Source of the DNA: Microtetraspora niveoalba
GTDB lineage: Bacteria; Actinomycetota; Actinomycetes; Streptosporangiales; Streptosporangiaceae
Length of the DNA: 64,000 bases
Assembly: GCF_001570405.1 (NCBI RefSeq)
Contig: NZ_BBYM01000002.1
Span: 31,402 to 95,401 of the forward strand
Direction of reading: 5' to 3'
Positions 30,556 through 55,905 of this stretch are shown here, in pieces. The notes beneath the pieces are model-generated. The model worked only from the letters and a program-made list of their open reading frames with translations. It was not told where the DNA came from and ran no database searches. Each line of letters opens with the position of its first letter. Positions within the stretch are counted from its first letter, which is position 1. The position numbers were made by a program, and so were the translations under genes.

Positions 30556-30571
30556 CTGACATTAGGATCAG
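30556..30571. promoter_or_regulatory. Regulon site A: CTGACATTAGGATCAG
   Basis: First of five copies of the palindrome CTGA-N3-TA-N3-TCAG. It is centred about 78 bases upstream of the sulfatase start, in the only AT-rich stretch between the sigma factor and sulfatase genes. Confidence 0.75.
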
Positions 30572-30640
30572 TTTTCGCCCACGCCTCCGCGGAGCACGCC
30601 CGCGGGCGGTCGCGTCGGCGTAGACCGGAGGACGGCACGT

Positions 30641-32212
30641 ATGGGTCGCAAGATTCTGTTCATCACGACCGACCAGCAGCGCTACGACGCGTACGGGTGC
30701 AACGGAGGGAGGATCGCCCGGACTCCGGTGACCGACGGACTCGCCGCGGAGGGCGTCCGGTACGAACGGGCCTACTGCGCGAACGCGGTGTGCAGCCCCG
30801 CGCGGTCCAGCATCCTCACCGGACAGTACCCGCGGACGCACGGCGTGATCGCCAACGGAGTCCCGCTGCCGGAGGACGCGCCCAGCGTCGCCCGGGTGCT
30901 GAACGACGCCGGCTACCGCACCGCGCTCATCGGCAAGGTCCACTTCGAGCCGATCGCCGACCCCACCGGCCGCTACGAGCAGAACCGGCTCGCCCTGGCC
31001 GACGAGCACGGGCCCTATCGCGGGTTCGAGTACGTGGATTTCGCCGGCCACGGCACCTTCGGCGCCTCGCACTACGCGAACTGGCTGCGGAACGAGCACC
31101 CCGACGAGACCGGCGGCTTCCTCCGGACCTTCGCGAGCGCCCCCGGCGGGGAGACGGGCGCCCCGGCCGTCGCGCCCAACCCGATCCCCCGCGAGCACTA
31201 CCACACCGACTGGGTGGCCGACCGGGTGATCGCGTGGCTGGACTCGTTGTCCGACGACGACGACTGGTTCTGCTGGATGAGCTTCCCTGACCCGCACCAC
31301 CCCTGGGACCTGCCGGCCTCGGAGGCCGGGCGGGTGGACTGGCGCGATCTGGACCTTCCCGCCGGGCACCCGGGCTCCGACGAGCGCATCCGCGAGATCC
31401 TGGCCGGTCGGCCGGAGCACTGGCTCGCCTGGTACGACGGGTCGGTCCCCAACATCGACGGCGCTCCCGGCGACTTCGTCCCGGCGAAGCTGACCCACGA
31501 CCAGATCCGCGAGATCAACGCCGTGATCCACGCGAAGAACGAGATGCTGGACGAGGCGTTCGGACGTGTACTCGACACGATCGAGCGGCGCGGATGGGGC
31601 GACGACACGGACGTCCTCGTCACGACCGATCACGGCGAGTTCCAAGGGGATCTGGGGCTGCTGTTCAAGGGGCCCTACCACGTCGACGCACTGCTGCGGC
31701 TGCCCCTGATCTGGCGCCCGGCCAGGTCGGCGGGGACACCCGCCGCCGTGGTGCCCGATCCGGTGGGGCAGGTCGACCTGGCGCCGACGTTCTGCGAGAT
31801 CGCCGGCGTCCCCGTCCCGGAGTGGATGCAGGGCGCCCCGCTGCCCACCGAGAAGGGGTCGGGCCGGGATCGGGCGGTCATCGAGTGGGACAGCCAGCTC
31901 GACACCGGTTACCGGCTCAGGACGATCGTGAAGGACGGCTGGCTGTGCACCGCGTACGAGCCCACCGATCGCGAGTACGGCATGCCGAAGGCGGAGCGGT
32001 ACGCGAGCTTCGGCATGGTCCCGCCGGATCGGGAGATCGTCTACGACGGCGGCGAGGGTGAGCTCTACAACCTGGAGGAGGACCCGCACCAGTGGGTCAA
32101 CCGGTGGGACGACCCGGCTGCGGCCGATGTGCGCGCCGCACTCGTGGCCGACCTCCACGCGAGTCTCGCCCCCGCGCGCGAACCGCGGCTCCGCCCGACG
32201 GCGATGGGCTGA
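30641..32212 (+). CDS. Type I sulfatase (formylglycine-dependent), cytosolic
   Basis: 523 residues. Metal site ITTDQQR near the N-terminus (Asp11), the maturation motif CSPAR with Cys51 to be turned into formylglycine, GKVHFEP, and TTDHGEF for metal binding. There is no signal peptide (MGRKILFITT), so it acts in the cytosol on a sulfate ester that has been imported. The C-terminal LYNLEEDPHQWVN block is typical of the family. Preceded by regulon site A and followed by a 15-bp hairpin, it is a single-gene unit. The shared site links it to the neighbouring importer and degradation genes. Confidence 0.93.
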   Translation: MGRKILFITTDQQRYDAYGCNGGRIARTPVTDGLAAEGVRYERAYCANAVCSPARSSILTGQYPRTHGVIANGVPLPEDAPSVARVLNDAGYRTALIGKVHFEPIADPTGRYEQNRLALADEHGPYRGFEYVDFAGHGTFGASHYANWLRNEHPDETGGFLRTFASAPGGETGAPAVAPNPIPREHYHTDWVADRVIAWLDSLSDDDDWFCWMSFPDPHHPWDLPASEAGRVDWRDLDLPAGHPGSDERIREILAGRPEHWLAWYDGSVPNIDGAPGDFVPAKLTHDQIREINAVIHAKNEMLDEAFGRVLDTIERRGWGDDTDVLVTTDHGEFQGDLGLLFKGPYHVDALLRLPLIWRPARSAGTPAAVVPDPVGQVDLAPTFCEIAGVPVPEWMQGAPLPTEKGSGRDRAVIEWDSQLDTGYRLRTIVKDGWLCTAYEPTDREYGMPKAERYASFGMVPPDREIVYDGGEGELYNLEEDPHQWVNRWDDPAAADVRAALVADLHASLAPAREPRLRPTAMG

Positions 32213-32217
32213 CCGGC

Positions 32218-32259
32218 CTCATGCCCGGGGCCCGAGCGGGTTCCGGCCCCGGGCATGAG
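32218..32259 (+). terminator. 15-bp hairpin after the sulfatase gene
   Basis: Perfect arms CTCATGCCCGGGGCC / GGCCCCGGGCATGAG with a 12-base loop begin six bases past the stop codon. It is one of the strongest hairpins in the window. It also stands after the convergent importer operon's last gene, so it may stop both. Confidence 0.75.
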
Positions 32260-32362: not shown

Positions 32363-33163
32363 TCATCCCTGCCGGTCGACGGCCATCGTGGGAACGGCCG
32401 ACAGCAGGCGGCGCGTGTAGGGATGCCGGGCCGCCTCCTCCGTCAGGCCGGCCGACAGCAGCTCCTCCACCACCTCACCCCCGTTCATGACGAGGATCCG
32501 GTCGCAGACGAGCCGGATGACGCTGATGTCGTGGCTGATCAGCATGTACGCGAGGTCGTTCTCGCGTCTGAGGTCGAGCAGAAGCTGGAGGATCTGCGCC
32601 TGCACGGAGACGTCGAGGGCCGACACCGACTCGTCCAGCACGACCAGGGACGGGGAGACGGCCAGCGCGCGGGCGATCGAGGCGCGCTGCCGCTGCCCGC
32701 CGGACAGGCTGTCCGGCCTGCTTTGCGCCGCTCCCGCCGACAGTCCCACCCGGTCCAGCAGTTCCAGCGCGCGCCGGTCCGCCTCCCTCCGGTCCATGCC
32801 GTGCCACAGGCGCGACGGCTCGGCCACGATCTCCGCGACGGTCATCGCCGGGTTCAACGAGGTGTACGGATCCTGGAAGACCATCTGGACCGTCCTCCAG
32901 ATGGTCCGGTCCAGCCCGCGGCGCGCGTACACCTCCCGGCCGGCGACCCGCACCGATCCCGAATCCGGCCGCACGAGCCCGCAGATGATGCCGGCGAGCG
33001 TGGACTTACCCGATCCCGACTCGCCGACCACGCCGACGGACTCACCCGCGGCGATCGCCACGCTGACGCCGCCGACCGCGACGGTCGGCGGCTTGCGTGC
33101 CAGGCGTCCCCCGAGCCGGTAGGTCTTGGTCACCGACTCGACCTCGACGAGCAGCTCCGCCAT
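32363..33163 (-). CDS. Peptide/nickel-type ABC importer ATPase (DppF-like)
   Basis: 266 residues. Walker A GESGSGKST, Q-loop MVFQDPYTSLNP, signature LSGGQRQR, Walker B LVVLDESVSALD, H-loop ISHD. The end reads HPYTRRLL, typical of oligopeptide importer ATPases. The ATG at 33163 follows GGAG; earlier codons are Arg-rich shadow. It is the last gene of the five-gene importer operon, six bases after the partner ATPase, and lacks the long zinc/Fe-S tail of some OppF proteins. Confidence 0.92.
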   Translation of the reverse strand: MAELLVEVESVTKTYRLGGRLARKPPTVAVGGVSVAIAAGESVGVVGESGSGKSTLAGIICGLVRPDSGSVRVAGREVYARRGLDRTIWRTVQMVFQDPYTSLNPAMTVAEIVAEPSRLWHGMDRREADRRALELLDRVGLSAGAAQSRPDSLSGGQRQRASIARALAVSPSLVVLDESVSALDVSVQAQILQLLLDLRRENDLAYMLISHDISVIRLVCDRILVMNGGEVVEELLSAGLTEEAARHPYTRRLLSAVPTMAVDRQG

Positions 33164-33168
33164 CGCCC

Positions 33169-34155
33169 CTACTCCTCCGATCCGCGCGCGTGGTGGCAAC
33201 GGACGAGATGCCCGCTCCCCCGCGTCTCCAGCGCCGGGTGATCCCGCTCGCACTCCTCGGTGCGCAGTGCGCACCGCGGCGTGAACCGGCATCCCGACCG
33301 CACCTCACCCGCCTGCGGCACCCGCCCCGGCAGCGGACGCAGCGCGCCGACCGCCAGCGCGTGCTCCGGGGTGCACTGCTGCAACGCCCGCACGTACGGG
33401 TGGGACGGCCGCCGCAGCACGTCCGCCGTCACGCCCGACTCCACCAGTTCCCCGGCGTACATCACCAGCAGCCGGTCGCAGCGCTCGCCGACCAGCGCGA
33501 GATCGTGGGACACGAACAGCACGGCGAGCCCCAGATCGAGGCGGAGCCGGTCGAGGAGGTCCATCACCCCGCGCTGCACGGTCACGTCCAGGGCGGTGGT
33601 GGGCTCGTCCGCCACGAGGACGGACGGTTCGCCGGCGATCGCGATGGCGATCATCACCCGCTGCCGCATGCCGCCGGAGAACTCGAACGGGTACTGGCGG
33701 GCCCGCTCGGCGGGCCGGGTGATCTCGACGCGGTCCAGCGCCTCCACCGCCGCGCGCCGGGCTTCGCGCCGGGACGTCCCGGGCCTGCGCAACCGGATCG
33801 CCTCGGCCACCTGGTCCCCCACCCGCATCGAGGGATTCAGGCTCGTCATGGGGTTCTGGAAGACCATCGCCACTCCGCGGCGCGCGGCGCGACGCGTGGC
33901 CGGGCCGGTCGCCCCGCCGTCGACCGCGCCGTCGACCTCGATGGCGCCGCCGGCCGGCCGTACGCCGCGCGGCAGCACCCCCGCGACGGCGGATGCGGTC
34001 AGGCTCTTGCCGGAGCCGGACTCGCCGACCATGCCCACCATCTCGCCGCGCCCGATCGCGAAGGAGACGTCCGTGACGAGCGGCGTGCTCCCCCCTTGGC
34101 GGTCCAGCTCGACGGTGAGGCCGGTCACCCTGAGCACGGCCTGCGCGTCAGCCAC
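33169..34155 (-). CDS. Peptide/nickel-type ABC importer ATPase (DppD-like)
   Basis: 328 residues. Walker A GESGSGKSL (Leu instead of Thr/Ser at the last position), VFQNPMTSLNP, signature FSGGMRQR, Walker B VLVADEPTTALD, and the C-terminal cysteine region GCRFTPRCALRTEEC, which in this family binds an Fe-S cluster or zinc. The GTG at 34155 with AAGGGGG before it overlaps the permease stop by eight bases. It forms a heterodimer with the DppF-like ATPase and energises the two permeases. Confidence 0.92.
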   Translation of the reverse strand: MADAQAVLRVTGLTVELDRQGGSTPLVTDVSFAIGRGEMVGMVGESGSGKSLTASAVAGVLPRGVRPAGGAIEVDGAVDGGATGPATRRAARRGVAMVFQNPMTSLNPSMRVGDQVAEAIRLRRPGTSRREARRAAVEALDRVEITRPAERARQYPFEFSGGMRQRVMIAIAIAGEPSVLVADEPTTALDVTVQRGVMDLLDRLRLDLGLAVLFVSHDLALVGERCDRLLVMYAGELVESGVTADVLRRPSHPYVRALQQCTPEHALAVGALRPLPGRVPQAGEVRSGCRFTPRCALRTEECERDHPALETRGSGHLVRCHHARGSEE

Positions 34156-34996
34156 GGCGTTCCCCCTTGCTCTCGATGTCACCGATCACGTTCAGGCTGA
34201 GGATCAGCAGGGACAGCACGGCCGCCGGGATGAGCACGACCCGGGGGGCGGAGGCCAGCATGGCCGCCGCGCCCGAGAGCATGGTGCCGAGGCTCGCGTT
34301 CGGGGACTCGACGCCGACTCCCAGGAAGCTGATGCCGGCCTCGATCAGGAGGGAGAGCCCCAGCAGGTAGCTCACCTGGACGAGCGACTGGGCCCTGATC
34401 CCGGGAAGCAGGTAGCGCAGCAGGATCCGGGTGTGGGAGCAGCCCGACATCCGGCCCGCCATCAGGTACGGCAGGGTGGCGACCTTGACGGTCTCCGTGC
34501 GCACCACCCGGTAGATCCGCGGTGCGAAGACCACCCCCAGCGTCACCATCTGCCCGGTGATCCCCGACCGGAGCGCGGCGTGCACGGTGAGCAGCAGCAC
34601 CAGCGCGGGGACCGTCAGGATCACGTCCGCGACCCGTCCGGTGGCCGCCTCGACCCAGCCCCGGCGGTACCCGGCCAGCATCCCGAAGGGAAGGCCGACG
34701 GCGGTGGCGACGGCGATCGCCGTCAGCGCGGCGAACAGCGACGTGCGCGTGCCCCACAGCAGCCGCGCGAGCAGATCGCGTCCCAACTGGTCGGTGCCGA
34801 GCAGGTGCTCGGCCGAGTACGAGGCCAGGGTGTCGCCGAGGTGCTGCCGGTTGGGCTCGCCGAGCGGGAGGAACGGCACCGCCACGGCCACGGCGAGGCA
34901 GACGAGCACGAACCCGAGGGCGAGCGCCCGGGTGACGCCCAGGCCGGCGAGTATCCCGGTGGAGCGGGGCCGTCCGGTGGCCACCACCTCGGTCAT
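34148..34996 (-). CDS. ABC importer permease (DppC-like)
   Basis: 282 residues with six predicted helices. The N-terminal HLLGTDQLGRDLLARLLWG is the family signature of the DppC/OppC permeases, and the EAA-like loop (EAATGRVADVILTVPALVLL) contacts the ATPase. Its start overlaps the DppB-like stop (ATGA). It works with the partner permease to pass the substrate across the inner membrane. Confidence 0.92.
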   Translation of the reverse strand: MTEVVATGRPRSTGILAGLGVTRALALGFVLVCLAVAVAVPFLPLGEPNRQHLGDTLASYSAEHLLGTDQLGRDLLARLLWGTRTSLFAALTAIAVATAVGLPFGMLAGYRRGWVEAATGRVADVILTVPALVLLLTVHAALRSGITGQMVTLGVVFAPRIYRVVRTETVKVATLPYLMAGRMSGCSHTRILLRYLLPGIRAQSLVQVSYLLGLSLLIEAGISFLGVGVESPNASLGTMLSGAAAMLASAPRVVLIPAAVLSLLILSLNVIGDIESKGERRG

Positions 34997-35952
34997 GACA
35001 GCCCCCTCGATGCGGGATTGAGCCAGAGCGCGATGAGATCGGTGACCAGGTTGGCCGCCAGGATGACCAGGGCGCACAACGCGACCAGCGCCTGCACGAC
35101 GGGGAAGTCCTGGCCCTGGACGGCTTCCAGGGTCAGGGTGCCGATGCCCGGGATCGCGAACACCGACTCCACGAGCAGCGCGCCGGTGATGAGCACGCCG
35201 ACCTCCAGGCCGATGACGGTGACCCAGGGCGCGGCGGCGTTGCGGGCGACGTGCCGGAAGAAGACGCCGCCCGGTGAGACGCCCTTCATGCGCGCGGTGC
35301 GGACGTAGTCGCCCTCGTACTCCTTGATGAGCGAGGCCCGGAAGGTGCGCATCTGGACGCACATCAGGCCCAGCGCCAGCGACGCGGCCGGCAGTGTCAG
35401 GAACTGCAGCGCGGTCGCCCAGCCCACCTCGGCCGGATCCCGGTAGCCGCCCGCGGGGAACCACCGGAACCACAGCGAGAACACCAGGATGAGCACGTAG
35501 CCGACGAGGAAGTTGGGGACCGCGATGCCGAGCACCGCGACGGCGCCCAGGCCGCGGTCCACCGGCCCGCCGGGCCGCGACCCGACGGCGCTGCCCATCA
35601 GGACGGAGGCGAGGACCGCCGCCGTCAGCGCGAGGAAGGACAGCAGGAGCGTCGGCGGCAGGTACTGGCCGATCAGGTCCAGTACCGTCCCCCTGTTGTG
35701 CAGGGACGCTCCGAAGTCGCCCCGGACCGCGTTCCCCAGCCAGTCGAGGTACTGCGCGATGACGGGCCGGTCCAGTCCCAGGCTGTGGCGGACCTGCGCC
35801 ACCTGCTGGGGGGTGGCGGACTCGCCGGCGACCACGGCGGCCGGATCGCCGATGGCGAAGAGCATGACGTAGGTGCAGGCGGTGACGACGACGAGGGTCG
35901 GGACGGCGGCGAGGGCCCGCAGCGCGGCCTGCCGGAGGATCAGTGTGAGCAT
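34993..35952 (-). CDS. ABC importer permease (DppB-like)
   Basis: 319 residues with six predicted helices; the N-terminal arm LRALAAVPTLVVVTACTYVM and the periplasmic SLGLDRPVIAQYLDWLGNAV region are typical of DppB/OppB. A hairpin separates it from the solute-binding protein gene 75 bases upstream. Confidence 0.92.
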   Translation of the reverse strand: MLTLILRQAALRALAAVPTLVVVTACTYVMLFAIGDPAAVVAGESATPQQVAQVRHSLGLDRPVIAQYLDWLGNAVRGDFGASLHNRGTVLDLIGQYLPPTLLLSFLALTAAVLASVLMGSAVGSRPGGPVDRGLGAVAVLGIAVPNFLVGYVLILVFSLWFRWFPAGGYRDPAEVGWATALQFLTLPAASLALGLMCVQMRTFRASLIKEYEGDYVRTARMKGVSPGGVFFRHVARNAAAPWVTVIGLEVGVLITGALLVESVFAIPGIGTLTLEAVQGQDFPVVQALVALCALVILAANLVTDLIALWLNPASRGLS

Positions 35953-36027: not shown

Positions 36028-37557
36028 TCAGCCCTTGACGCCGCGGAACGTCGGGAAGGCCTGGGACCAGGGGTTCCGCCATCCGGTGACCGCGGGCGAC
36101 ACCGCGTAGCTGGTCTTGACGCTCAGGACGGGCACCATCTGGAATCCGTCCATCACGGCGGCCGAGAGCTTCTTGTAGATCTCGTCGCGCTTGGCCTGGT
36201 CGGTCTCCCGGACGGCCTCCGCGGCCAGCTTCACGACCTCGTCGTTGGTGTAGCCGCCGGGGTTGTACAGCCCCTCCGGCAGGACGTAGCGGGCGACGGT
36301 GGCGGAGGGATCGAAGGTGTTGCCGCTGGCGCCCACCGCCATCGCGACACTCTTCTCGGCGGTGAACTTGCCGACCACCTGGGGTGGCGCGACCGGGCTG
36401 ACGGCGGCCTTCAGGCCGATGGTGTTCATCTGCTCCTGCACCACGGACGCGAGCTGCTCCATGATCTGGTTGCCTGCGACCGTGACGATCTCCACGTTCG
36501 CGCCCGCCGCCCCGGCTTCCTGGACCAGCTTCTTGGCCTTCTCCAGGTCGTACGGCACCGCATTGAGGCCGAGGTCCTTGTCGTACTGGGTGGTGCCGGC
36601 CGCGAAGAACTGGCCGGTCGGCTCGCACTGCCCCTGGAACAGCCCCGCGCAGACCGCCTCGCGGTCCACCGCCAGGTTGACGGCTTCGCGGACGCGGGGG
36701 TCGTCGAACGGTTTCGTCCGCGTGTTGAAGGAGAAGGAGAAGTTCTCCGTGCCGTAGGCGCGGTCCACCTTGTAGCCGGCGTCCTGCGCGGCCTTGGCCA
36801 TCTGCTCCGGGACGACCGTGACGTCCAGGTCGCCGGTGCGGATGGCGTTCAGCTTCGCGTCGTCGGTCAGGTAGGTGAGCTCCAACGTCTCGGTGGCCGC
36901 GGCCTCGGGGTCCCAGTACGCCGGGTTCTTCTTGTAGACGACCCGGTTGGGCTGCACGGTCTGCAGGGTGAAGGGTCCGATGCCCGCGGACTGCCGGGTC
37001 AGGTCCATGCCGTCGGCGACGGCCTTGTCCGAGATCATCATCCCGGAGGGTCCGGCGAGCGTGCGCGGGAGGTCCCCCACGCCGGCCTCGTGGCGGAACC
37101 GCACCGTCGACGGCCCGGACTCCTCGACGGTCACGCCGGCCAGCTCGGCGGCGTTGGTGCTCTGCTTGAGCGTCTGCGAGCGGCGCACGTTGGCGATGAC
37201 CGTCTTGGTGGTGAACGGGGTCCCGTCGGGGAAGGTCAGCCCCTCGCGCAGGGTCATGTCCAGGTACGGGCCCTTGTCGTCCTCACCGGCCTCCCACTTC
37301 GTGGCGAGCATCGGCTGGATGCTGTGATCCGGCGCGAGATAGGTGAGCGAGTCGTACAGCGGCTGGGTGTAGACCACCATCTGCCGTACGGGGATGAGGT
37401 CCGGGTCCAGGGTCGTGCCCGCCAGGACGGCGCCGAACTTCAGCACGCCGTCCGCGGCGGACCCCGTGGTCGCGGCCCCGCCCCCCGAGCCGCCGCCGCA
37501 GGCCGAGACCAGGCCCAATCCCAGAGCGGCGGCCATGACCGCCAGTTGCTTCTTCAT
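36028..37557 (-). CDS. Family 5 solute-binding lipoprotein of the importer
   Basis: 509 residues. The N-terminus MKKQLAVMAAALGLGLVSAC is a lipoprotein signal ending in the lipobox LVSAC, so it is anchored outside the membrane by Cys20. The rest is the SBP_bac_5 fold (YDSLTYLAPDHSIQPMLATK, then TFPDGTPFTTKTV, FNTRTKPFDDPRVREAVNLA). These proteins bind oligopeptides, nickel, or other polar organic compounds. It is the first gene of the importer operon, 65 bases downstream of regulon site B. Together with the sulfatase and degradation genes, the substrate could be an organic sulfate rather than a peptide. Confidence 0.93.
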   Translation of the reverse strand: MKKQLAVMAAALGLGLVSACGGGSGGGAATTGSAADGVLKFGAVLAGTTLDPDLIPVRQMVVYTQPLYDSLTYLAPDHSIQPMLATKWEAGEDDKGPYLDMTLREGLTFPDGTPFTTKTVIANVRRSQTLKQSTNAAELAGVTVEESGPSTVRFRHEAGVGDLPRTLAGPSGMMISDKAVADGMDLTRQSAGIGPFTLQTVQPNRVVYKKNPAYWDPEAAATETLELTYLTDDAKLNAIRTGDLDVTVVPEQMAKAAQDAGYKVDRAYGTENFSFSFNTRTKPFDDPRVREAVNLAVDREAVCAGLFQGQCEPTGQFFAAGTTQYDKDLGLNAVPYDLEKAKKLVQEAGAAGANVEIVTVAGNQIMEQLASVVQEQMNTIGLKAAVSPVAPPQVVGKFTAEKSVAMAVGASGNTFDPSATVARYVLPEGLYNPGGYTNDEVVKLAAEAVRETDQAKRDEIYKKLSAAVMDGFQMVPVLSVKTSYAVSPAVTGWRNPWSQAFPTFRGVKG

Positions 37558-37621: not shown

Positions 37622-37637
37622 CTGACTTTATCCTCAG
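37622..37637. promoter_or_regulatory. Regulon site B: CTGACTTTATCCTCAG
   Basis: Second copy of CTGA-N3-TA-N3-TCAG, 65 bases upstream of the solute-binding lipoprotein start, in an AT-rich stretch. Confidence 0.75.
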
Positions 37638-37708
37638 CTTCTTGCGGCGGACAAGGCTTTGACGGCAGGCGTCGGATAACGGAAAAGCACCGGCCGACCG
37701 CGGGCCGG

Positions 37709-38800
37709 TCAGCGCGGCAGGGGCGCGGGGCGCCACGGCGCGAACGTGGGGAGCACCAGGATCCCCGGGGCCGCCGCGCACACCTCCTCGATCGCCCGGA
37801 CGACCGGTCCGGCCACCGCGTACTGCATCGCCTTGGACTTGTCCGGATAGCCCTCGGGATCGTCCAGGCCGACCTGGATCCTGAGCCTGGGCGCGCCGTC
37901 GATCGTGATCGTCCAGCCGTCCTCGCCCTGGAAGTCCGGCTGGTCGTCGTCGGCCCGCCAGTCCATCTGGATGGTCAGGAACCGGCCGGCCTCCGTGTTG
38001 GCGTGCCAGCGCCAGCGGGCGCAGGAGACGGTGCCTTTGGGGATCGTGCCCACGACGATGCGCACGTCCTCCTTGGCCACCGCGATCTCGTGGTCCTCCT
38101 CGACCGAGGTGAACTCCACGTTCAGGGCGTGCGACACGTACCCGGTGATCTCGCCGAAGAGCTCGGTGAAGAACGCCGCGCGGCCCGCGGTCGCCTCCTT
38201 GAACCGCTCCGGGGTCATCCCGAATCCGCACAACTCGTAAATGAATCCCGGCGAGATGACCGGCGAGCAGTCGTAGACCTCGCGGAAGTGGATGTGCTTG
38301 ACGTCGGTGCACATGGTGGTGGCGGCGACCGCCAGGCGCTCGGTGATCAGTCCCGGGTTCACGCCGGTGCCGAACAGCGTGGCGCCTCCTTCGACGGCGG
38401 CCCGCCGCAGCCTGGCGGTGTGCTCCGGCTCCGCCTTGCCGGTGCCGCCGGGAGTGATCGGCCACGGGTAGGTGAAGGCGACCGTCGTGATGACGTTCTT
38501 GCCCGAGCGCAGCAGCCGGACCAGGTCGTCCACATGCTGGCCGGGCGACTCCCCGTTGAGCGGGGTGTGCAGGACGACGTCGGCGTCCAGGGCGAGGATG
38601 TCCTCGATGTCCTTGGTCGCGGTCACGCCGATCGGCCGCCGCCTCAGGATCTCTCCGGCGTCGCGGCCGGCCTTGTCGTCGCTGTAGGTCAGCAGGCCGA
38701 CCAGTTCCAGGCCGGGCCGGTCGATCACGTGGCGGCCGGTGACCCGGCCGATGGCGCCGGTGGCCCACTGCACCACCCGGTAGGGTCGCGACACTCTCAC
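37709..38800 (-). CDS. Dihydrodipicolinate-reductase-like NAD(P)H oxidoreductase
   Basis: 363 residues. N-terminal Rossmann fold YRVVQWATGAIGR (GxxGxxG variant WATGAIG) followed by a catalytic domain with GTGVNPGLITER and HIHFREVYDCS. This is the group of 2,4-diaminopentanoate dehydrogenase and other DapB-like amine/ketone oxidoreductases common in actinomycete catabolic clusters. The GTG start overlaps the stop of the acyl-CoA dehydrogenase gene (GTGA), making it the last gene of a seven-gene operon that begins at 46430. Its substrate is unknown. Confidence 0.8.
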   Translation of the reverse strand: MRVSRPYRVVQWATGAIGRVTGRHVIDRPGLELVGLLTYSDDKAGRDAGEILRRRPIGVTATKDIEDILALDADVVLHTPLNGESPGQHVDDLVRLLRSGKNVITTVAFTYPWPITPGGTGKAEPEHTARLRRAAVEGGATLFGTGVNPGLITERLAVAATTMCTDVKHIHFREVYDCSPVISPGFIYELCGFGMTPERFKEATAGRAAFFTELFGEITGYVSHALNVEFTSVEEDHEIAVAKEDVRIVVGTIPKGTVSCARWRWHANTEAGRFLTIQMDWRADDDQPDFQGEDGWTITIDGAPRLRIQVGLDDPEGYPDKSKAMQYAVAGPVVRAIEEVCAAAPGILVLPTFAPWRPAPLPR

Positions 38801-43776: not shown

Positions 43777-43787
43777 TGCAGTGTCCT

Positions 43788-46608: not shown

Positions 46609-47217
46609 ATGCCAGCCACGCCGAAGGGACGGCGCACCGAGGCCGCGTTCTTGGAAGCCGCCCGGCAGGTCTTCGCCGAGAAGGGGTACTTCAACGCGAA
46701 GATCTCGGACATCGCGCAGGCTGCCGGCAAGTCGCCAGGGTCCTTCTACAACTACTACGAGAACAAGGAGGAGCTGCTCGAAGCGCTCCTCGAGCAGTTC
46801 TCGGCGGAGGTTCTCGAGGAGTCCCTGAAGAGCCAGACCGACGACCCCCTCGAAGGGATACGCGGGGCCGTGCGGGCGTACTGGACCACCTACCGCAAGT
46901 ACCTCGCGGAGATGGTGGGCGTCTTCCAGATGTCGATGACCGACCCGGTCTTCGCCGATCGCTGGCGGGAGAACCGGGCGGCCGGCATCCGGGCGGTGCT
47001 CGCGGGGATCAAGCACGCCGAGAAGGACGGGTACCGGGTCGGCCTCGATCAGAGCACGCTCGCGTCCGCGATCGTCTCGCTGCTCGAGTCCTTCTGCTGG
47101 ACGTGGATGGCCGCGGGCGGCGACGCGAACGTGGAGCCGCCCGACGACGAGACCGCGATCGAGACGCTGAGCGCGATCTGGTACCGGACGCTCCACTTCG
47201 AGGCCCCGCGGGCCTGA
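46609..47217 (+). CDS. TetR-family regulator, candidate master repressor of the catabolic regulon
   Basis: 202 residues. Helix-turn-helix at about 12-58 (KISDIAQAAGKSPGSFYNYY), followed by a ligand-binding domain with an LLESFCWTWMAAGG segment typical of TetR regulators of fatty-acid and CoA-ester pathways. It is divergent from the first gene of the main catabolic operon, with regulon site C in the shared promoter. It is therefore the best candidate to bind all five CTGA-N3-TA-N3-TCAG sites. The inducer is likely a CoA ester or the free acid, by analogy. Confidence 0.9.
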   Translation: MPATPKGRRTEAAFLEAARQVFAEKGYFNAKISDIAQAAGKSPGSFYNYYENKEELLEALLEQFSAEVLEESLKSQTDDPLEGIRGAVRAYWTTYRKYLAEMVGVFQMSMTDPVFADRWRENRAAGIRAVLAGIKHAEKDGYRVGLDQSTLASAIVSLLESFCWTWMAAGGDANVEPPDDETAIETLSAIWYRTLHFEAPRA

Positions 47218-47293: not shown

Positions 47294-48082
47294 TTACCGG
47301 CCCCGCCAGACCGGGCTGCGCTTCTCCGCGAACGCGGCGGCGCCCTCCTTCGCGTCCTCCGACGCGAAGACCGGCGCGATGATCCGCTCCTGCCGCTCCC
47401 ATCCCTCGGCGAGCGTCCAGTCGGCGGCGGAGCGGGCGATCCTCTTGGTGGCCGCGACGCCGAGCGGGCCGTTGGCGGCGATCTTCGCGGCCAGCTCCAG
47501 CGCGCCGGCGAGCGCCTCTCCCGCCGGCGCCACCCGGTTGACGAGGCCCACGTCGAACGCGCGCCGCGCGGTGACGGGCTCACCGGTGAGGAGCATCTCC
47601 ATGGCGAACGCGAACGGGACGCGGCGCGGCAGCGTCAGCGCGCCTCCGGCGGCGGCGACGAGCGAGCGGCTGACCTCCGGAACGCCGAACCTGGCCGTCT
47701 CGCCCGCGACGACCAGGTCGCACGCGAGCAGCAGCTCGAACCCGCCGGCCAGCGCCCAGCCCTCGACGGCGGCGATCAGCGGCTTCCGCGGCGGGGTCAC
47801 GGCGATGCCGGCCAGTCCCCGGCCCTCGATCGTGGGACTCTCCCCCCGCAGGAACGCCTTGAGGTCCATGCCGGCCGAGAACACCCCGCCGGCGCCGGTC
47901 AGGACGCCGACCCGCAGTTCGTCGGACGCGTCCAGCTCGTCGACCGCGTCGGCTATGCCCCGGGCGACGGCGAGGTTGAGCGCGTTCTTCGCCGCCGGCC
48001 GGTTGATGGTGATGACCTGCACGCCGCCGACGCGCTCGACGAGGACCTCCCTCGTCCCGTCGCCGTCCTCTCGATTCCCCAT
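47294..48082 (-). CDS. Enoyl-CoA hydratase/isomerase
   Basis: 262 residues of the crotonase fold. Oxyanion-hole segments are GVFSAGMDLKAF and VEGWALAGGFELLLACD; a Glu follows in FGVPEVSRSLV. This pattern fits a hydratase of short or medium enoyl-CoA. ATG at 48082 with AAGGGTG upstream was chosen over a GTG two codons earlier. It follows the TetR gene at 48099 by 16 bases, an operon under that regulator. Confidence 0.92.
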   Translation of the reverse strand: MGNREDGDGTREVLVERVGGVQVITINRPAAKNALNLAVARGIADAVDELDASDELRVGVLTGAGGVFSAGMDLKAFLRGESPTIEGRGLAGIAVTPPRKPLIAAVEGWALAGGFELLLACDLVVAGETARFGVPEVSRSLVAAAGGALTLPRRVPFAFAMEMLLTGEPVTARRAFDVGLVNRVAPAGEALAGALELAAKIAANGPLGVAATKRIARSAADWTLAEGWERQERIIAPVFASEDAKEGAAAFAEKRSPVWRGR

Positions 48083-48098
48083 ATTCACCCTTACTCGT

Positions 48099-48698
48099 TC
48101 ACTCTTCTGATTCGTGCGGATCGGGCCGCCGGATACCGGCGAGAAACGTGTCGCAGAAGACGTCGGCGACGGCCCTCGGCGGCAGCGCCGCCTCCCTCTT
48201 CAGCCAGACGTAGGAGTAGTTGAACATCCCGAGGATTCCTTTCAGAACCACGGGGTCGGGCAGTTTCCGGAATTTCCCCTCGGCCACCCCCGCGTCGAGC
48301 GCACGCCCCCACACCTGCTCGTACTGCTTGCGCAGATCGAGCATCGTCTCCCTGCGCGGGCCGGTGAGCGCGGTGAAGTCGCGATAGTGGACGGTCCATT
48401 CGAGAACGTGGTCCGCGACGTTCTCCATGAGCGTCCGGGCCAGTTCCCGGAATCGTTCCTCGGGGTCCGCCACACGCGTCTCGATGTCGTGGGCCGCGTC
48501 GACCATCACCCGCAACTGGGCGGTGCTGATCTCGAACAGCAGCGCCTCCTTGTTGCCGATGTGATGGTAAAGAGCGCCGCGCTGGAGGCCGACGGCCGCT
48601 TCGAGTTGCGCCACTCCCGTTCCGTGGTATCCGTGTTCGGCGAACAACTCGGCGGCGACGCGCAGAATCCGAGCTTTCTGCGATGACTCGCGGACCAT
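48099..48698 (-). CDS. TetR-family regulator (KstR2-like)
   Basis: 199 residues. Helix-turn-helix at about 10-55 (HGTGVAQLEAAVGLQRGALY) with HHIGNKEALL, and a C-terminal domain similar in pattern to KstR2/FadR-type TetR regulators of cholesterol-ring or fatty-acid degradation. It leads a two-gene unit with an enoyl-CoA hydratase. No CTGA-N3-TA-N3-TCAG site lies in its own promoter, so it may serve a different signal within the same pathway. Confidence 0.9.
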   Translation of the reverse strand: MVRESSQKARILRVAAELFAEHGYHGTGVAQLEAAVGLQRGALYHHIGNKEALLFEISTAQLRVMVDAAHDIETRVADPEERFRELARTLMENVADHVLEWTVHYRDFTALTGPRRETMLDLRKQYEQVWGRALDAGVAEGKFRKLPDPVVLKGILGMFNYSYVWLKREAALPPRAVADVFCDTFLAGIRRPDPHESEE

Positions 48699-48795
48699 GA
48701 ACCTGCCGATCTCTCGAGGGTGGGGATCACCGGTCAGCTCCGGCGCCGACGGTACGATACGGGGTCCTCACCCCCGGCCCCGCGATCCCGGGCGG

Positions 48796-49572
48796 CTACT
48801 TGGGCGGGAGCCGGACGCCGGCGTCGATCCGGATGACCTCGCCGTTGATGTAGCCGTTGGTCAGCAGCTCCCAGGCGAGGCTGGCGAACTCCTCGGCCTG
48901 ACCGAGCCGGCGGGGGAACACCACGTCCTCGGCCAGCTTGGCCTTGAACGCGTCCGGGTCCGGCACCGTGTCGTAGATCGGCGTGTCGATCAGCCCCGGG
49001 GCGATGGTGTTGACCCGCACCCCCACGACGCCGAGGTCGCGCGACAGCGGCAGGGTGATGCCGACCACGCCTCCCTTGGAGGCGCTGTAGGCGACCTGCC
49101 CGATCTGGCCTTCGAACGCGGCGACCGACGTGGTGTTGACGATGGCGCCGCGGGCGCCGTCGGCGTCGGGTTCGTTGCGGGACATCGCGGTCGCGGCGAG
49201 GCGCACGACGTTGAAGGTGCCGATCAGATTGACCTCGACCACCTTGCGGAACGCCTCCAGGCTGTGCGCCGAAGCGTACTCGCCGTCCTTGCCGATCGTG
49301 CGGGACAGGCTCGGGATCCCGGCGCAGTTGACGACGGCCCGCAGCGGGGCCTGCGCCGCCGCGGCGTCGATCGCGGCGATGACCTGTTCGGTGTCGGTCA
49401 CGTCCGCGGCGACGAACCCGCCGCCGATGTCGGCGGCGACCCGCTTCCCGTTGTCGGCGTCGAGGTCGATGACGGTGACCTTCAGCCCCTTGGCCGCAAG
49501 GAGGCGGCCGGTGGCCTCCCCCAGTCCGGACCCTCCGCCGGTGACGATGGCCGAGCTGCCAGTCAGATCCAC
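48796..49572 (-). CDS. Short-chain dehydrogenase, 3-hydroxyacyl-CoA dehydrogenase type
   Basis: 258 residues. Cofactor motif VTGGGSGLGEATGR (TGxxxGxG), NAG in VVNCAGIP, catalytic Ser in NTTSVAAFEGQIGQVAYSAS and YSASKGG. Asp in VIDLDAD favours NAD. It resembles type II 3-hydroxyacyl-CoA dehydrogenases (HSD10-like) and fits the third beta-oxidation step. It is the last gene of the operon with the hydratase at 49601. Confidence 0.92.
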   Translation of the reverse strand: MDLTGSSAIVTGGGSGLGEATGRLLAAKGLKVTVIDLDADNGKRVAADIGGGFVAADVTDTEQVIAAIDAAAAQAPLRAVVNCAGIPSLSRTIGKDGEYASAHSLEAFRKVVEVNLIGTFNVVRLAATAMSRNEPDADGARGAIVNTTSVAAFEGQIGQVAYSASKGGVVGITLPLSRDLGVVGVRVNTIAPGLIDTPIYDTVPDPDAFKAKLAEDVVFPRRLGQAEEFASLAWELLTNGYINGEVIRIDAGVRLPPK

Positions 49573-49600
49573 CTGTGTCTCCTTCAGCTTGATGAACGAC

Positions 49601-50347
49601 TCAGTGCTTGCGGAGGAAGTCGGCGATCGCCGCCCGCGCCTCGGGAGAGGAGATCACGTCCACCTGGTTGGCGATCTCCGCTTCGAGCGCGGCGGCGAGG
49701 TCGGTCTCCCACGCGGCGTTGAGCAATGACTTGGTACCGCTGAGGGCCCCGGGCGCCAGGCCGCGGAGCCGGTCGGTCAGCGCGGCCACCTCGGCGGGCA
49801 GCCGGTCCTGCGGGACGACCGCGGTGACCATCCCCCATTCGAGCGCGGTCGCCGCGTCCAGGGAGTCGCCGAGCAACGCCAGCCGGCGCGCCCGCCGGTC
49901 CCCCACCAGCCGGGGCAGCAGCCAGCTCGCCCCGCTGTCCAGCGACAGCCCGCGCCTGATGAACAGCTGCAGGAAGCGGGACCGGTCGCTGGCGACGACG
50001 AAGTCGCAGGCGAGGGCGAGGTTCGCGCCCGAACCCGCCGCGATGCCGTCGACCATCGCGACGGTCGGGACCGGCGCCTCGTGCACGGCCAGCACGCACC
50101 GGTTGGACACCCTGATCCGGTCCGGCAGGGTGTCGAGGTCGTCGAGCAGGCCGCCGACATCCGATCCGCCACAGAACGCGCCGCCGGCCCCGGTGAGCAC
50201 CACGACCCGGACCTCCGGGTCCGCGGACAGCTCCGCGAGCATGGCGTCCAGCGTGCTCCACATGGCGTCGGTCATCGCGTTGAGCTTGCCGGGACGGTTG
50301 AGCGTGATCGTCGCGACGCCGTCCCGCACCTCGCCGTCGACGCTCAC
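49601..50347 (-). CDS. Enoyl-CoA hydratase/isomerase
   Basis: 248 residues of the crotonase fold with GAFCGGSDVGGLL and VDGIAAGSGANLALACD as oxyanion-hole segments. FIRRGLSLDSGASWLL places Asp rather than Glu at a catalytic position, which suggests an isomerase or a hydratase for an odd substrate. The GTG start overlaps the acyl-CoA dehydrogenase stop (GTGA). It is part of the operon that begins at the thiolase (53498). Confidence 0.9.
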   Translation of the reverse strand: MSVDGEVRDGVATITLNRPGKLNAMTDAMWSTLDAMLAELSADPEVRVVVLTGAGGAFCGGSDVGGLLDDLDTLPDRIRVSNRCVLAVHEAPVPTVAMVDGIAAGSGANLALACDFVVASDRSRFLQLFIRRGLSLDSGASWLLPRLVGDRRARRLALLGDSLDAATALEWGMVTAVVPQDRLPAEVAALTDRLRGLAPGALSGTKSLLNAAWETDLAAALEAEIANQVDVISSPEARAAIADFLRKH

Positions 50348-51513
50348 GCCCGCTCCCCGGGCGCGTCGAGGGACCGGCCGATGATCTCTTTCATGATCTC
50401 GTTGGTGCCGCCGTAGATCGTCTGCACCCGCGCGTCGAGAAAGGCCCGGGCGACCGGGTACTCCTGCATGAATCCGTAGCCGCCGTGCAGTTGCAGGCAG
50501 CGGTTGACCACGTCCTGCTGCAGCTCGGTGGTCCACCACTTGGCCTTGGCGGCCTCCTCGGCCGTCAGCTCGCCCGCCACGTGCCGGCGGATGAGGTAGT
50601 CCACGTACACCTGGGCGACCTCGGTGGCCGTGGTGAGCTCGGCCAGCACGAACTTGGTGTTCTGGAAGGAGGACAGGCGCTCGCCGAACGCGGTCCGCCC
50701 GCGGCAGTAGTCGACCGTCCACTCCAGTACGGCACGGGCCCCGGCGATCGCCGACACCGACAGGGCGACCCGTTCCTGCGCGAGGTTGCGCATCAGGGTG
50801 CCGAACCCGGTCCCCGGCTCGCCGAGCAGGTTCCCCGCCGGGACGCGGGCGTCGTCGAAGAACAGCTCCGCGGTGTCCTGGCTCTTCAGCCCGATCTTCT
50901 TGAGGGCGCGGCCCCGCGTGAACCCCGGTGCGCCCTCCTCCACCACGATGAGGCTCATCCCGCGGTGGCGCCGCTCCGGATCGGTCTTGACCGCCACGAC
51001 GACCAGGTCGGCGTTGAGCCCGTTGGTGACGAACGTCTTCGAGCCGTTGAGGACGTAGTCGTCGCCGTCGCGGACCGCGGTGGTGCGGATCGACGCGAGG
51101 TCCGACCCGGTTCCCGGCTCGGTCATGGAGATCGCGCCCATCGTCTCCCCGGTGACCGTCCCGGGCAGCCAGCGGGCGCGCTGCTCCGGGGTGGTGGCGG
51201 TCAGCAGGTAGGGCAGCACGATGTCGTTGTGCAGGGTGATGCACATGCCCGAGCCGATGACGTTGGCCCGTTGCAGCTCCTCGGAGATGATCACGTTGTA
51301 CCGGAAGTCCGGCTCGCCGAGGCCGCCGTACTCCTCCGGCACCGCCATGCCCAGGAAACCGGCCGCGCCGGCCGCGAGGAACATGGTTCTGTCCACGCGT
51401 CCCCGCGTCTCCCATTTCTCGTGGTGCGGCTCGATCTCGCTCCGCACGAACGCCCGGAAACTGCTCCGGAAATCCTCGTGGGTGTCGTCGAACAGGTCAC
51501 GATGTACGGCCAT
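50344..51513 (-). CDS. Acyl-CoA dehydrogenase
   Basis: 389 residues, standard medium-chain-like enzyme: MTEPGTGSDLASIRTTAV, YVLNGSKTFVTNG, RTAFGERLSSFQNTKFVLAE, LHGGYGFMQEYPV, and catalytic Glu in YGGTNEIMKEII. It introduces the 2,3-double bond in a CoA ester and passes electrons to ETF. It sits between an SDR and an enoyl-CoA hydratase gene with a four-base overlap to the latter. Confidence 0.94.
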   Translation of the reverse strand: MAVHRDLFDDTHEDFRSSFRAFVRSEIEPHHEKWETRGRVDRTMFLAAGAAGFLGMAVPEEYGGLGEPDFRYNVIISEELQRANVIGSGMCITLHNDIVLPYLLTATTPEQRARWLPGTVTGETMGAISMTEPGTGSDLASIRTTAVRDGDDYVLNGSKTFVTNGLNADLVVVAVKTDPERRHRGMSLIVVEEGAPGFTRGRALKKIGLKSQDTAELFFDDARVPAGNLLGEPGTGFGTLMRNLAQERVALSVSAIAGARAVLEWTVDYCRGRTAFGERLSSFQNTKFVLAELTTATEVAQVYVDYLIRRHVAGELTAEEAAKAKWWTTELQQDVVNRCLQLHGGYGFMQEYPVARAFLDARVQTIYGGTNEIMKEIIGRSLDAPGERA

Positions 51514-51531
51514 GCCGTCTCTCCTCCTGGT

Positions 51532-52293
51532 TCATCGCGCGGTCCAGCCGCCGTCGACGGCGATGGTCTGCCCGGTGACGAACGCCGACCCGGGCCCGGC
51601 GAGCAGCAGCAGGACCGCGTCCAGCTCCTCGGGCCTGCCGGGGCGCCCCATCGGGGTGTTGCGCTCGATCCACCGGCGCGCGGAGTCGTCGGCGAGCATG
51701 CGCTCGGTCAGCTCGCTGGGGAACCAGCCCGGCGCGATCGCGTTGACCCGCACTCCCGTGCGCGCCCATTCGCAGGCCAGATGCCGGGTGAGGCTGATCA
51801 CCGCGCCCTTGGCCGCACCGTACGCGGACTGCGGGACGGGGGCCGAGGCCACCATGCCGAGGATGGAGGCGATGTTGACGACGGAGCCGCCGCCGCGCGC
51901 CGCCATGGACTTCCCGGCGAGCACGCTGAGCTGGAACAGCGCGGTCAGGTCGATGTCGAGGGTCCGGCGGAAGGACTCGATCGGCTGGTCGAAGGCGGGC
52001 AGCGGATCGGCCCAGCCGGCGTTGTTGACCAGGATGTCGATCCCGCCCAGCTCGTCGGCGCGGGCGATCAGCCGCGCGCAGTCGGCGTCGTCGGTGACGT
52101 CGCACCGGTGGGCGAGCACACCGTCCTGCTCGGCGGCCAGTTCGTCGAGCAGGTCCGTACGGCGGGCGGCGGCGATCACGGTCGCCCCGGCACGGGCGAG
52201 CACCTGGGCGAACCGCCGTCCCAGCCCGCTCGACGCCCCGGTGACGACCGCGACCTTCCCGCTGAGGTCGGTGAACCGCTCGGCGGAGTTCAT
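51532..52293 (-). CDS. Short-chain dehydrogenase/reductase
   Basis: 253 residues: VTGASSGLGRRFAQ cofactor motif, NNAGWADP, IASILGMVASAPVPQSAYG with the catalytic Ser and Tyr (YGAAK), and C-terminal ITVDGGW-like TIAVDGGW. It should oxidise a 3-hydroxyacyl-CoA or reduce a 3-ketoacyl-CoA. Its start overlaps the thiolase stop (ATGA). Confidence 0.92.
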   Translation of the reverse strand: MNSAERFTDLSGKVAVVTGASSGLGRRFAQVLARAGATVIAAARRTDLLDELAAEQDGVLAHRCDVTDDADCARLIARADELGGIDILVNNAGWADPLPAFDQPIESFRRTLDIDLTALFQLSVLAGKSMAARGGGSVVNIASILGMVASAPVPQSAYGAAKGAVISLTRHLACEWARTGVRVNAIAPGWFPSELTERMLADDSARRWIERNTPMGRPGRPEELDAVLLLLAGPGSAFVTGQTIAVDGGWTAR

Positions 52294-53498
52294 GACACCC
52301 TCTCGATCACGGTGGCGTTGGCCATGCCGCCGCCCTCGCACATCGTCTGCAGGCCGAAGCGGCCGCCGGTGCGTTCGAGTTCGTGGAGCAGGGTGACCAT
52401 CAGCTTGGCGCCGGATGCGCCCAGCGGGTGCCCGAGGGAGATTCCCCCGCCGTTGACGTTGACCTTGGCCGGGTCGGCGCCGATCTCGCGCTGCCAGGCG
52501 AGGACCACCGAGGCGAACGCCTCGTTCACCTCGAACAGGTCGATGTCGTCCGCGCTCATCCCGGCGCGGTCCAGGACGCGCCGGGTGGCGGGGATGGGCG
52601 CGGTCAGCATCTCGACCGGGTCGGCGCCGACGACCGCCATGTGCCGGATCACCGCGCGGGGGCGCAGGCCCAGGGCTCGCGCCCGGCCGGAGCTCATGAT
52701 GAGGAGCGCGGCCGCTCCGTCGACGATCTGCGAGGAGTTGCCGGCGGTGATCCGGCCCTCCGGCACGAACGCCGGCTTGAGCGCGGCCAGCGCCTCCATC
52801 GAGGTGTCGCGGATGCATTCGTCGGCGGCCAGGTTCCCGCCCGGCACGGTGACCTCGCCGGTCTCCCGGTCGCGCCGCCTGCGCGCCACGGGGACGATCT
52901 CGCGATCGAACCGGCCCTCGTCGCGGGCGGCGGCCGCCCGCCGCTGGCTGAGCAGGCCGTAGGCGTCCAGTTCCTCCCGGGCGATGCCGTACCGGTCCGC
53001 CACGAGCTCGGCCGAGATGCCCTGCGGCACCAGGCCCGTGTGTCCGTACGCCTCGCGGTCGGCGTACCGGTTCTGCGCCGCCTGACCGTAGACGGCGCGG
53101 ATGTCGCCGCCCGGCGCGTTGGAGAACATCGGCACGGTCGACATGCACTCGATGCCCGCGGCGACCACCACGTCGCACGATCCCGCCATGATCGCCTGGG
53201 CGGCGAAGTGGACGGCCTGCTGGGAGGAGCCGCACTGACGGTCGACGGTGGTGGCGGGGACGGTCTCGGGCCAGCCCGCGGCCAGGACGGCGGTGCGCCC
53301 GACGTTCGTGCTCTGCGCGCCGTTCTGGGTGACGCATCCCATGATGACGTCGTCGACGACGGCGGGGTCGATGCCGGTCCGCTCCCGCAGCGCGTTCAAC
53401 GTCTCGGCGGCGAGTTCCGCGGGATGCCACCCGGACAACGAGCCATGGCGTCTGCCCGCCGGGGTGCGCACCGCTTCCACGATCACTGCTTCGGACAT
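52290..53498 (-). CDS. Acetyl-CoA acetyltransferase (thiolase, FadA-type)
   Basis: 402 residues with thiolase motifs: nucleophile Cys89 in DRQCGSSQQAV, NEAFASVV, GHPLGASGAK, and second catalytic Cys387 in CEGGGMANA. It cleaves a 3-ketoacyl-CoA into acetyl-CoA or propionyl-CoA and a shortened ester. First gene of the operon that holds an SDR, acyl-CoA dehydrogenase, hydratase and SDR. Two operator-like palindromes lie in its promoter: a TetR-type GTACCGA repeat and regulon site D. Confidence 0.94.
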   Translation of the reverse strand: MSEAVIVEAVRTPAGRRHGSLSGWHPAELAAETLNALRERTGIDPAVVDDVIMGCVTQNGAQSTNVGRTAVLAAGWPETVPATTVDRQCGSSQQAVHFAAQAIMAGSCDVVVAAGIECMSTVPMFSNAPGGDIRAVYGQAAQNRYADREAYGHTGLVPQGISAELVADRYGIAREELDAYGLLSQRRAAAARDEGRFDREIVPVARRRRDRETGEVTVPGGNLAADECIRDTSMEALAALKPAFVPEGRITAGNSSQIVDGAAALLIMSSGRARALGLRPRAVIRHMAVVGADPVEMLTAPIPATRRVLDRAGMSADDIDLFEVNEAFASVVLAWQREIGADPAKVNVNGGGISLGHPLGASGAKLMVTLLHELERTGGRFGLQTMCEGGGMANATVIERVS

Positions 53499-53571: not shown

Positions 53572-53587
53572 CTGAAGGTAAATTCAG
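53572..53587. promoter_or_regulatory. Regulon site D: CTGAAGGTAAATTCAG
   Basis: Fourth copy of CTGA-N3-TA-N3-TCAG, 74 bases upstream of the thiolase start and just past the end of the lyase gene. Confidence 0.75.
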
Positions 53588-54532: not shown

Positions 54533-54569
54533 GACTCTCCCCGGTTCGTCGCGGGCCCGCGGCCCGTCC

Positions 54570-55805
54570 TCAGATGACCCGCCGCGACCGGAGCCCGGCC
54601 AGGGCCTCGGCGTCCAGTCCCAGGACGCCGCCGTAGATCTCGTCGTTGTGCTGCCCCAGCTCCGGGCCCAGGGTCCGGACGTCGCCCGGGGTCTCGGAGA
54701 GGCGCGGAGCCACGTTCTGCATGGGGAACGCGCCCAGCTTGTCGTGCGTCAGCCGTACGATCGCCTTCCTCGCGGCGAAGTGCGGATCGGCGAACATGTC
54801 CTGCGCCGTGTAGATGAGACCGGCCGGCACCCCGGCTTCGTGCAGGCGTTCCAGCAGCGCGTCGGAGTCCTGCTCCCGGGTCCACTCGGCCACCAGCTTG
54901 TCGAGCTCCTCCTGGTTCTCACCGCGCGCGCCGTGCGTTCGGTACCGCTCGTCGGCCCGCCACTCCGGCCGGCCCATGAGGTCGGCCAGCCGGTCGAACA
55001 CGGTGTCGCGGTTGGCCGCGATCAGCACGGCCAAGCCGTCGCGGGTGGGATAGACGTTGCTGGGCGCGACCCCGGGCAGGATGGAGCCCGTGCGCTCCCG
55101 CCGCGCCCCGCCCAGCTCCCACTCCGGAAGGATCGACTCCATGAGCGCCAGCACCGCCTCGTAGATCGCGGAGTCGACCACCTGGCCGCGGCCGGTGCGC
55201 TCGCGGGACAGCAGCGCCATGACGGTGCCGAGCGCGGCGAACGTGCCGGCCAGCGAGTCGCCGATCGATATCCCCGCGCGGCTGGGGGCACGATCCGGTT
55301 CCCCGGTGACGTACCGCAGGCCGCCCATCGCCTCTCCGATCGAACCGAAGCCGGCCCTCTTGGAGTAGGGGCCGTCCTGGCCGTAACCGGTGATCCGGGT
55401 GATCACGAGCCGGGGGTTCAGCTCGGCCAGCGCCTCGGGACCCAGCCCCCAGCGCTCCAGGGTGCCGGGGCGGAAGTTCTCGATGAGCACGTCGGCGTCG
55501 GCGAGCAGGTCCCGCAGCAGCCGCTGCCCCTCGGCCTGCCGAAGGTCGCAGGTGATCGACTTCTTGTTGCGGGCGATGATCGGCCACGACAACGACAGTC
55601 CCTGCGGGCGATGGCTCCCCCACTGCCGCATCGGATCGCCGCCGCCCGGATCCTCGACCTTGATCACCTCGGCGCCGAAGTCCCCGAGGAGTTGCCCGCA
55701 GAACGGCCCGGCTATGAGCGAGCCGGTCTCGACCACCCGCAGCCCGGCCAGCGGGCCGCGGGCGCGCGCGGAGGGCGGGAGGTCCTTCTGATCGTCGTCG
55801 AGCAT
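54570..55805 (-). CDS. Family III (CaiB/BaiF-type) CoA-transferase
   Basis: 411 residues. VIKVEDPGGGDPMR, ENFRPGTLERWGLG and SIGDSLAGTF are family motifs, with Asp183 as the nucleophile equivalent to Asp169 of formyl-CoA transferase. It moves CoA between carboxylic acids, for example from succinyl-CoA to the pathway acid. AGAGG stands before the ATG at 55805. Regulon site E lies 85 bases upstream, and the lyase gene follows. Confidence 0.93.
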   Translation of the reverse strand: MLDDDQKDLPPSARARGPLAGLRVVETGSLIAGPFCGQLLGDFGAEVIKVEDPGGGDPMRQWGSHRPQGLSLSWPIIARNKKSITCDLRQAEGQRLLRDLLADADVLIENFRPGTLERWGLGPEALAELNPRLVITRITGYGQDGPYSKRAGFGSIGEAMGGLRYVTGEPDRAPSRAGISIGDSLAGTFAALGTVMALLSRERTGRGQVVDSAIYEAVLALMESILPEWELGGARRERTGSILPGVAPSNVYPTRDGLAVLIAANRDTVFDRLADLMGRPEWRADERYRTHGARGENQEELDKLVAEWTREQDSDALLERLHEAGVPAGLIYTAQDMFADPHFAARKAIVRLTHDKLGAFPMQNVAPRLSETPGDVRTLGPELGQHNDEIYGGVLGLDAEALAGLRSRRVI

Positions 55806-55889
55806 GTACGGACACCTCTTTCTGCCTGGCACCGATCGTTCGAGGCAGCCCACAGGGCAGGGGGCATGACGGCGGCACAAAAACTGAAT

Positions 55890-55905
55890 CTGACGTTAAC
55901 ATCAG
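55890..55905. promoter_or_regulatory. Regulon site E: CTGACGTTAACATCAG
   Basis: Fifth copy of CTGA-N3-TA-N3-TCAG and the most symmetric one, centred on GTTAAC, 85 bases upstream of the CoA-transferase start. Confidence 0.8.

Follow-up and report, generated by a model that had tools for sequence, protein, structure and literature searches.

A recurrent palindrome as the putative operator of a TetR-type repressor in a catabolic gene cluster of Microtetraspora niveoalba

The question raised by this locus is whether a short palindrome, repeated before several groups of catabolic genes, marks a single regulatory circuit and, if so, which protein acts upon it. The window (the whole stretch of 64,000 nucleotides of Microtetraspora niveoalba DNA that was analysed) holds exactly five copies of CTGANNNTANNNTCAG, at 30556, 37622, 46475, 53572, and 55890, with no match at all in 100 shuffles. 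These are the five palindromes of the preliminary description, and they are the sole matches in the window; a scan without the central TA recovered the identical five sites only, with 0.72 expected. It is highly likely, judging from the sequence and from its relatives, that they serve as operators for the TetR-family product of the gene at 46609, a repressor that would block RNA polymerase at five transcription units until an inducer is present. One neighbouring TetR-type repressor would very probably switch a breakdown pathway on and off through these five sites.

The cluster described here comprises a sulfatase, an ABC importer, an HpaB-like protein, an HmgA-like cupin of the ring-cleavage type, a CoA ligase, and enzymes of beta-oxidation. 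Strand and spacing point to five units, including unit D as a single operon, each with a putative operator upstream (the sites are given without strand). Site A (30556..30571) lies 69 bp, from its edge to the start codon, before the sulfatase of unit A (30641..32212, + strand; PF00884, 1.5e-36). Site B (37622..37637) is 64 bp from the start of the ABC extracellular binding protein (36028..37557, - strand; PF00496, 2.5e-63), which is the first gene of unit B. The remainder of this unit (32363..35952, - strand) consists of permeases (34993-35952 and 34151-34999) and ATPases (33172-34185 and 32363-33160), of which 34993 and 32363 were named by Pfam, and the middle two by eye and by their conservation with the cluster.

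Site C (46475..46490) lies between the HpaB-like gene and the TetR gene, at 44 bp from the former and 118 bp from the latter. Unit C begins with the HpaB-family flavoprotein (45048..46430, - strand; PF11794, 4.6e-70, and PF03241, 7e-52), followed by six genes on the same strand (37709..45035), all named by Pfam: an acyl-CoA dehydrogenase (43788-45035), the HmgA-like protein (42667-43785), an alpha/beta hydrolase (41483-42670), an AMP-dependent ligase (39963-41486), a second acyl-CoA dehydrogenase (38797-39960), and a DapB/DAP-dehydrogenase-like protein (37709-38800). The best match of the HpaB-like protein among solved structures is vinylacetyl-CoA isomerase (PDB 6vjr), and no relatives of the alpha/beta hydrolase were found in the PDB at E<=0.001. 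The identification of the HpaB-like protein as a 4-hydroxybutyryl-CoA dehydratase was rejected, given that the iron-sulfur ligands were not seen in the alignment, at what are presumed to be the ligand positions.

Site D (53572..53587) is located 73 bp before the start of unit D, a run of seven genes on the - strand (47294..53498), which encode a thiolase (52290-53498), an SDR (51535-52293), an acyl-CoA dehydrogenase (50344-51513), an enoyl-CoA hydratase (49604-50347), another SDR (48796-49572), a second TetR (48099-48698), and another enoyl-CoA hydratase (47294-48088), named by Pfam except for 50344 and 48796, which were named by eye. Site E (55890..55905) is 84 bp from the ATG (55803-55805) of unit E, also on the - strand, with a CoA-transferase of family III (54570-55805; PF02515, 1.2e-127) and an HMG-CoA-lyase-like (HMGL) protein (53639-54532; PF00682, 6.7e-38, with NF004283 above its cut-off). 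The distances to the gene starts thus range from 44 to 118 bp, which agrees to within a base with the 45-120 bases given previously.

The protein proposed to repress the five units (46609..47217, + strand) has an N-terminal TetR_N helix-turn-helix above the Pfam cut-off (PF00440, 3.3e-15). A named subfamily was sought among the NCBIfam models, of which 19 matched, none near its cut-off (the best, of the ScbR type, scored 50.6 vs 150 bits). Its gene and the HpaB-like gene are transcribed away from each other on either side of site C, their start codons lying 178 bp apart. TetR genes that have a divergent neighbour less than 200 bp away tend, as stated in PMC3511530, to regulate that neighbour, which favours the control of the HpaB-like gene by the 46609 protein. 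The locus presents a palindrome common to several promoters, one of which adjoins the regulator gene, as in a local catabolic regulon under TetR control. The sites, their rarity, their position in the promoters, and their conservation with the 46609 TetR were established computationally, and they give the catabolic cluster a proposed repressor, an operator, and a boundary; the DNA binding of this protein, the repressive sign of its action, and its autoregulation are predicted.

Without inducer, the 46609 protein would bind the promoters of the sulfatase, the ABC importer, the operon of the HpaB-like, HmgA-like, and ligase genes together with its own gene, the thiolase/beta-oxidation operon, and the CoA-transferase/HMGL genes. 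RNA polymerase would be blocked because the operator covers either the -10 hexamer or the spacer between the -35 and the -10. A metabolite of the pathway, by analogy a CoA thioester or an aromatic acid, would then release the repressor, so that the inducer, and hence the substrate, might be found by asking which metabolite frees it.

The motif contains TANNNT, a potential -10 hexamer, and a TTG was sought upstream in 36 site-gene orientations, drawn from the window and from the matrix matches in relatives (described below). It occurs at a spacer of 17 (eight cases), 18 (six), or 19 (three) in 17 of the 36 orientations, and seven times in total at the 18 other spacings (8-15 and 20-29), five of these at spacer 11. 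By gene, spacers of 17-19 were found for the binding protein (7/7), the CoA-transferase (4/4), the HpaB-like protein (3/8), the hydratase (1/3), the ligase (1/1), and the TetR (1/8), and in none of the cases for the sulfatase (0/3), the second TetR copy (0/1), and the thiolase (0/1). The window alone provides two of six orientations, at sites B and E. The predicted promoter B (37625..37654, - strand) has a -35 of TTGTCC (37649-37654), a spacer of 18, and a -10 of TAAAGT (37625-37630) within the operator, with the TTG at 17-19 in all seven orthologues examined. In the predicted promoter E (55893..55921, - strand), a -35 of TTGTAG (55916-55921) is separated by a spacer of 17 from a -10 of TAACGT (55893-55898), again within the operator, with the TTG at 17-18 in all four orthologues. 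There is a strong case, therefore, for reading the -10 as lying inside the operator of the importer and of the CoA-transferase, and an operator that can hold the -10 hexamer would imply repression by the blocking of the promoter.

At site D, TTGACG lies 6 bp downstream of the palindrome and is followed 18 bp further on by TACTGT, an apparent promoter that would also suit an activator. It is nevertheless unlikely that the 46609 protein activates, or acts both ways, at some sites such as D, given that the core covers the -10 in 11/11 orthologous cases at the promoters of the binding protein (SBP) and the CoA-transferase by the TTG-spacing test, and that most of the TetR proteins studied are, according to PMC3511530, repressors.

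The predicted repression by the 46609 protein can be set against the relatives, in which its orthologues are 87% identical in Microtetraspora glauca (G003), 79% in G026, 70% in G042, 46% in G039, and 38% in G067, and a motif site lies beside or near the orthologue in several genera. In M. glauca, both of the exact matches in the genome fall within the rearranged cluster (before the TetR/HpaB-like genes and the binding protein), as do all three in G026 (before the TetR/HpaB-like genes, the binding protein, and an enoyl-CoA hydratase). The gene order of both differs from that of the window, with the sites being kept before the same genes. The comparison of orthologous promoters proposed in the preliminary description thus shows that the relatives that keep the cluster also keep the sites at the same genes despite rearrangement, except for the G026 sulfatase, before which no site was seen in the promoter.

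Site A has a one-mismatch counterpart before the sulfatase of M. glauca, and a related site in L086. Counterparts of site B precede the same gene in G003, G026, L079, L080, L081, and L086; those of site C are found in G003, G026, L078, L079, L080, and L082; and those of site E lie before the CoA-transferase in L078, L079, and L080. Site D is without an orthologous promoter for comparison, as the thiolase sits within a longer run of genes in both G003 and G026. More distant counterparts, recognised by eye, are CTGAGTTTAGATTTAG, before the hydrolase in G039, and CTAATGTCACTTTTAG, before the HmgA-like gene in G067. The operator is thus conserved together with the regulator and its proposed targets, the exceptions being the G026 sulfatase and G042, which has the TetR orthologue and neither the cluster nor an exact site. 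The persistence of the sites in relatives that have both the TetR orthologue and the cluster supports the original proposal of the 46609 TetR as the likely repressor.

From the five window sites, taken with four flanking bases, a matrix was built and run over 11 stretches (G003, G026, and L078-L086, of which L078 and L086 are one strain; 260,247 bp). The best 21 matches all lie within 400 bp upstream of homologues of cluster genes, and the 22nd does not. These matches are not independent, as several strains are close kin. At the score of the 21 matches, 200 shuffled palindromic matrices gave a mean of 0.01 matches and a maximum of 1. There were 64 matches above the low cut-off of 8, where the shuffled matrices gave a mean of 20.8 and a maximum of 93, and among the 45 matches listed, none is inside a mapped homologue, these homologues being what the inside-gene check covered.

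The same comparison bears on whether another regulator binds the sites in place of the 46609 protein, either the second TetR (48099-48698) or a GntR (56577-57290), both genes being located within the regulated region or adjacent to it. This is quite improbable, considering that M. glauca keeps two exact sites with no homologue of the 48099 protein at E<=1e-20, while the sole homologue in G026 is 39% identical and far away; the GntR has no match in the mapped region of M. glauca, and only a 33% match in G026. The second TetR is better matched by another inverted repeat, GTACCGATCGGTCGGTAC (53520-53537), located in the promoter of the 48099 operon and possibly serving as the operator of this TetR. 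This repeat lies between the apparent -10 (TACTGT) and the start of the thiolase gene. The sequence TACCGANNNNTCGGTA occurs twice in the genome.

The whole genome, of 8,467,783 bp (8.47 Mb), has seven exact matches to CTGANNNTANNNTCAG, against 0 for the reversed control, with five of the seven within 25 kb (binomial P ~5e-12). Together with the shuffles of the window, this upholds the view that the palindromes are very improbable by chance. A genome scan had been proposed in the preliminary description, with many matches inside genes at the same rate as the outcome that would speak against the regulon; run with the exact pattern, it placed five matches in promoters of the cluster and two in intergenic DNA, and so did not refute it. 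Looser motifs were dropped, as their counts were those of the background (18 vs 12 in the control for one mismatch, and 39 vs 41 for CTRA-N8-TYAG); the AT-rich one-mismatch match on contig C22 is at the end of an ORF. Only in its complete form, central TA included, does the motif discriminate from the background. A non-regulatory origin of the sites, as a dispersed repeat or by chance, which might be suggested by the background counts of the one-mismatch and TA-free versions, is opposed by the expectation of 0 in the window and the 0 genome matches of the reversed control, and is refuted in practice by the conservation at orthologous promoters despite the rearrangement of the clusters.

The two genome matches outside the window form a tandem pair, 26 bp apart, in an intergenic region of contig C29 (L016:9985-10026). 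On one side is a different TetR gene, whose product has a C-terminal domain of the BetI type, and on the other a gene that was called agmatinase-like by eye; the presence of two exact sites beside another TetR weighs against the reading given here. An integrase-like gene, also named by eye, is found at this locus. The window TetR had no match in the C29 stretch at 1e-4, and a search of 59 other genomes for relatives of the C29 TetR (E<=1e-30) found none. The exact motif is present in 31 of 100 genomes searched, with seven copies in G000, two in G003, and three in G026; the remaining 97 genomes have 34 exact matches, with no more than two per genome. No homologue of the window TetR was seen near the motif matches in G001, G002, G008, G031, G039 (C119 and C620), and G054.

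A search of the open-access literature for this operator or cluster found nothing, and a local TetR regulon with this operator is, within that scope, not found in print. In the actinobacteria, the TetR repressors KstR and KstR2 act through many palindromes across a large set of CoA-linked catabolic genes, with the operators TnnAACnnGTTnnA and AnCAAGnnCTTGnT, neither of which matches the present one. The regulon may work like that of MbdR, which controls 3-methylbenzoyl-CoA catabolism in Azoarcus, where a TetR repressor of a catabolic cluster recognises, as described in PMC4424350, a common palindrome that spans the -10 at several promoters, including that of its own gene, and responds to a CoA thioester as the inducer. 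This analogy rests on the likeness of arrangement, and does not imply kinship: MbdR has, by the same account (PMC4424350), an operator of ATAC-N10-GTAT, a proteobacterial host, and an anaerobic pathway, whereas the operator here is CTGA-N8-TCAG.

The core often appears to sit in an array of 22 bp, in which two palindromes overlap at an offset of 6 bp and make up four half-sites; operators of the QacR/CprB kind have two such palindromes in about 22-28 bp. At site C, the second palindrome, CTAAATTCAGTTTTAG (46481-46496), starts 6 bp on, and recurs in Actinomadura. Examined by eye, the outer half-site matches at sites B, C, and E, giving a clear array, and is partial at A and weak at D. The array suggests a pair of dimers, as in CprB, in which two dimers occupy opposite faces of a site that is also of 22 bp (PMC4150764). 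CprB and QacR, which bind as a dimer of dimers, are not catabolic regulators, and two-dimer binding in the present case is predicted from the array.

Related loci extend this picture. In the best 80 of 516 loci, the recognition helix of the TetR is FYN in 29 and FYR in 51, and sites, rated by a hand-made score, were sought upstream of the TetR, HmgA-like, hydrolase, HpaB-like, or CoA-transferase genes. A site at threshold was found in 71 of these 80 loci (21/29 FYN and 50/51 FYR), leaving eight FYN loci and one FYR locus without one, while the random-window control gave a mean of 5.0 and a maximum of 12 loci per 80. The FYN half-sites in these best 80 loci are CTGA (32) and CTAA (10), and those of FYR are GTAA (46), CTGA (27), CTAA (22), GTGA (4), and TTGA (1). 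The two classes track phylogeny, and the difference in half-sites may thus represent a single event. It can be proposed tentatively, with rather more doubt than assurance, that these loci belong to one actinobacterial lineage of repressors, with a 22-bp operator of four half-sites, two dimers, and a built-in -10, which split into an FYN class (CTGA/CTAA) and a mycobacterial FYR class (GTAA/CTAA/CTGA, accompanied by A/T runs upstream of the HmgA-like gene). In such a lineage, the DNA specificity of a TetR repressor would have changed in nature while the pathway was retained. Mycobacteria share these core genes and carry a site of related form, so that the inducer and substrate, once found, would be informative for many genomes.

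The intergenic region of the TetR and HpaB-like genes had no match in the plasmid collection. In Actinomadura sp. KC06 (L079:6132-11509), two TetR copies of the 46609 type (75 and 68% identical) lie within approximately 5 kb, with motif sites near each. In G029, an exact motif outside the cluster (C110:17824-17839) precedes, by slightly more than 100 bp, a TetR homologue of 33% identity that starts near 17977.
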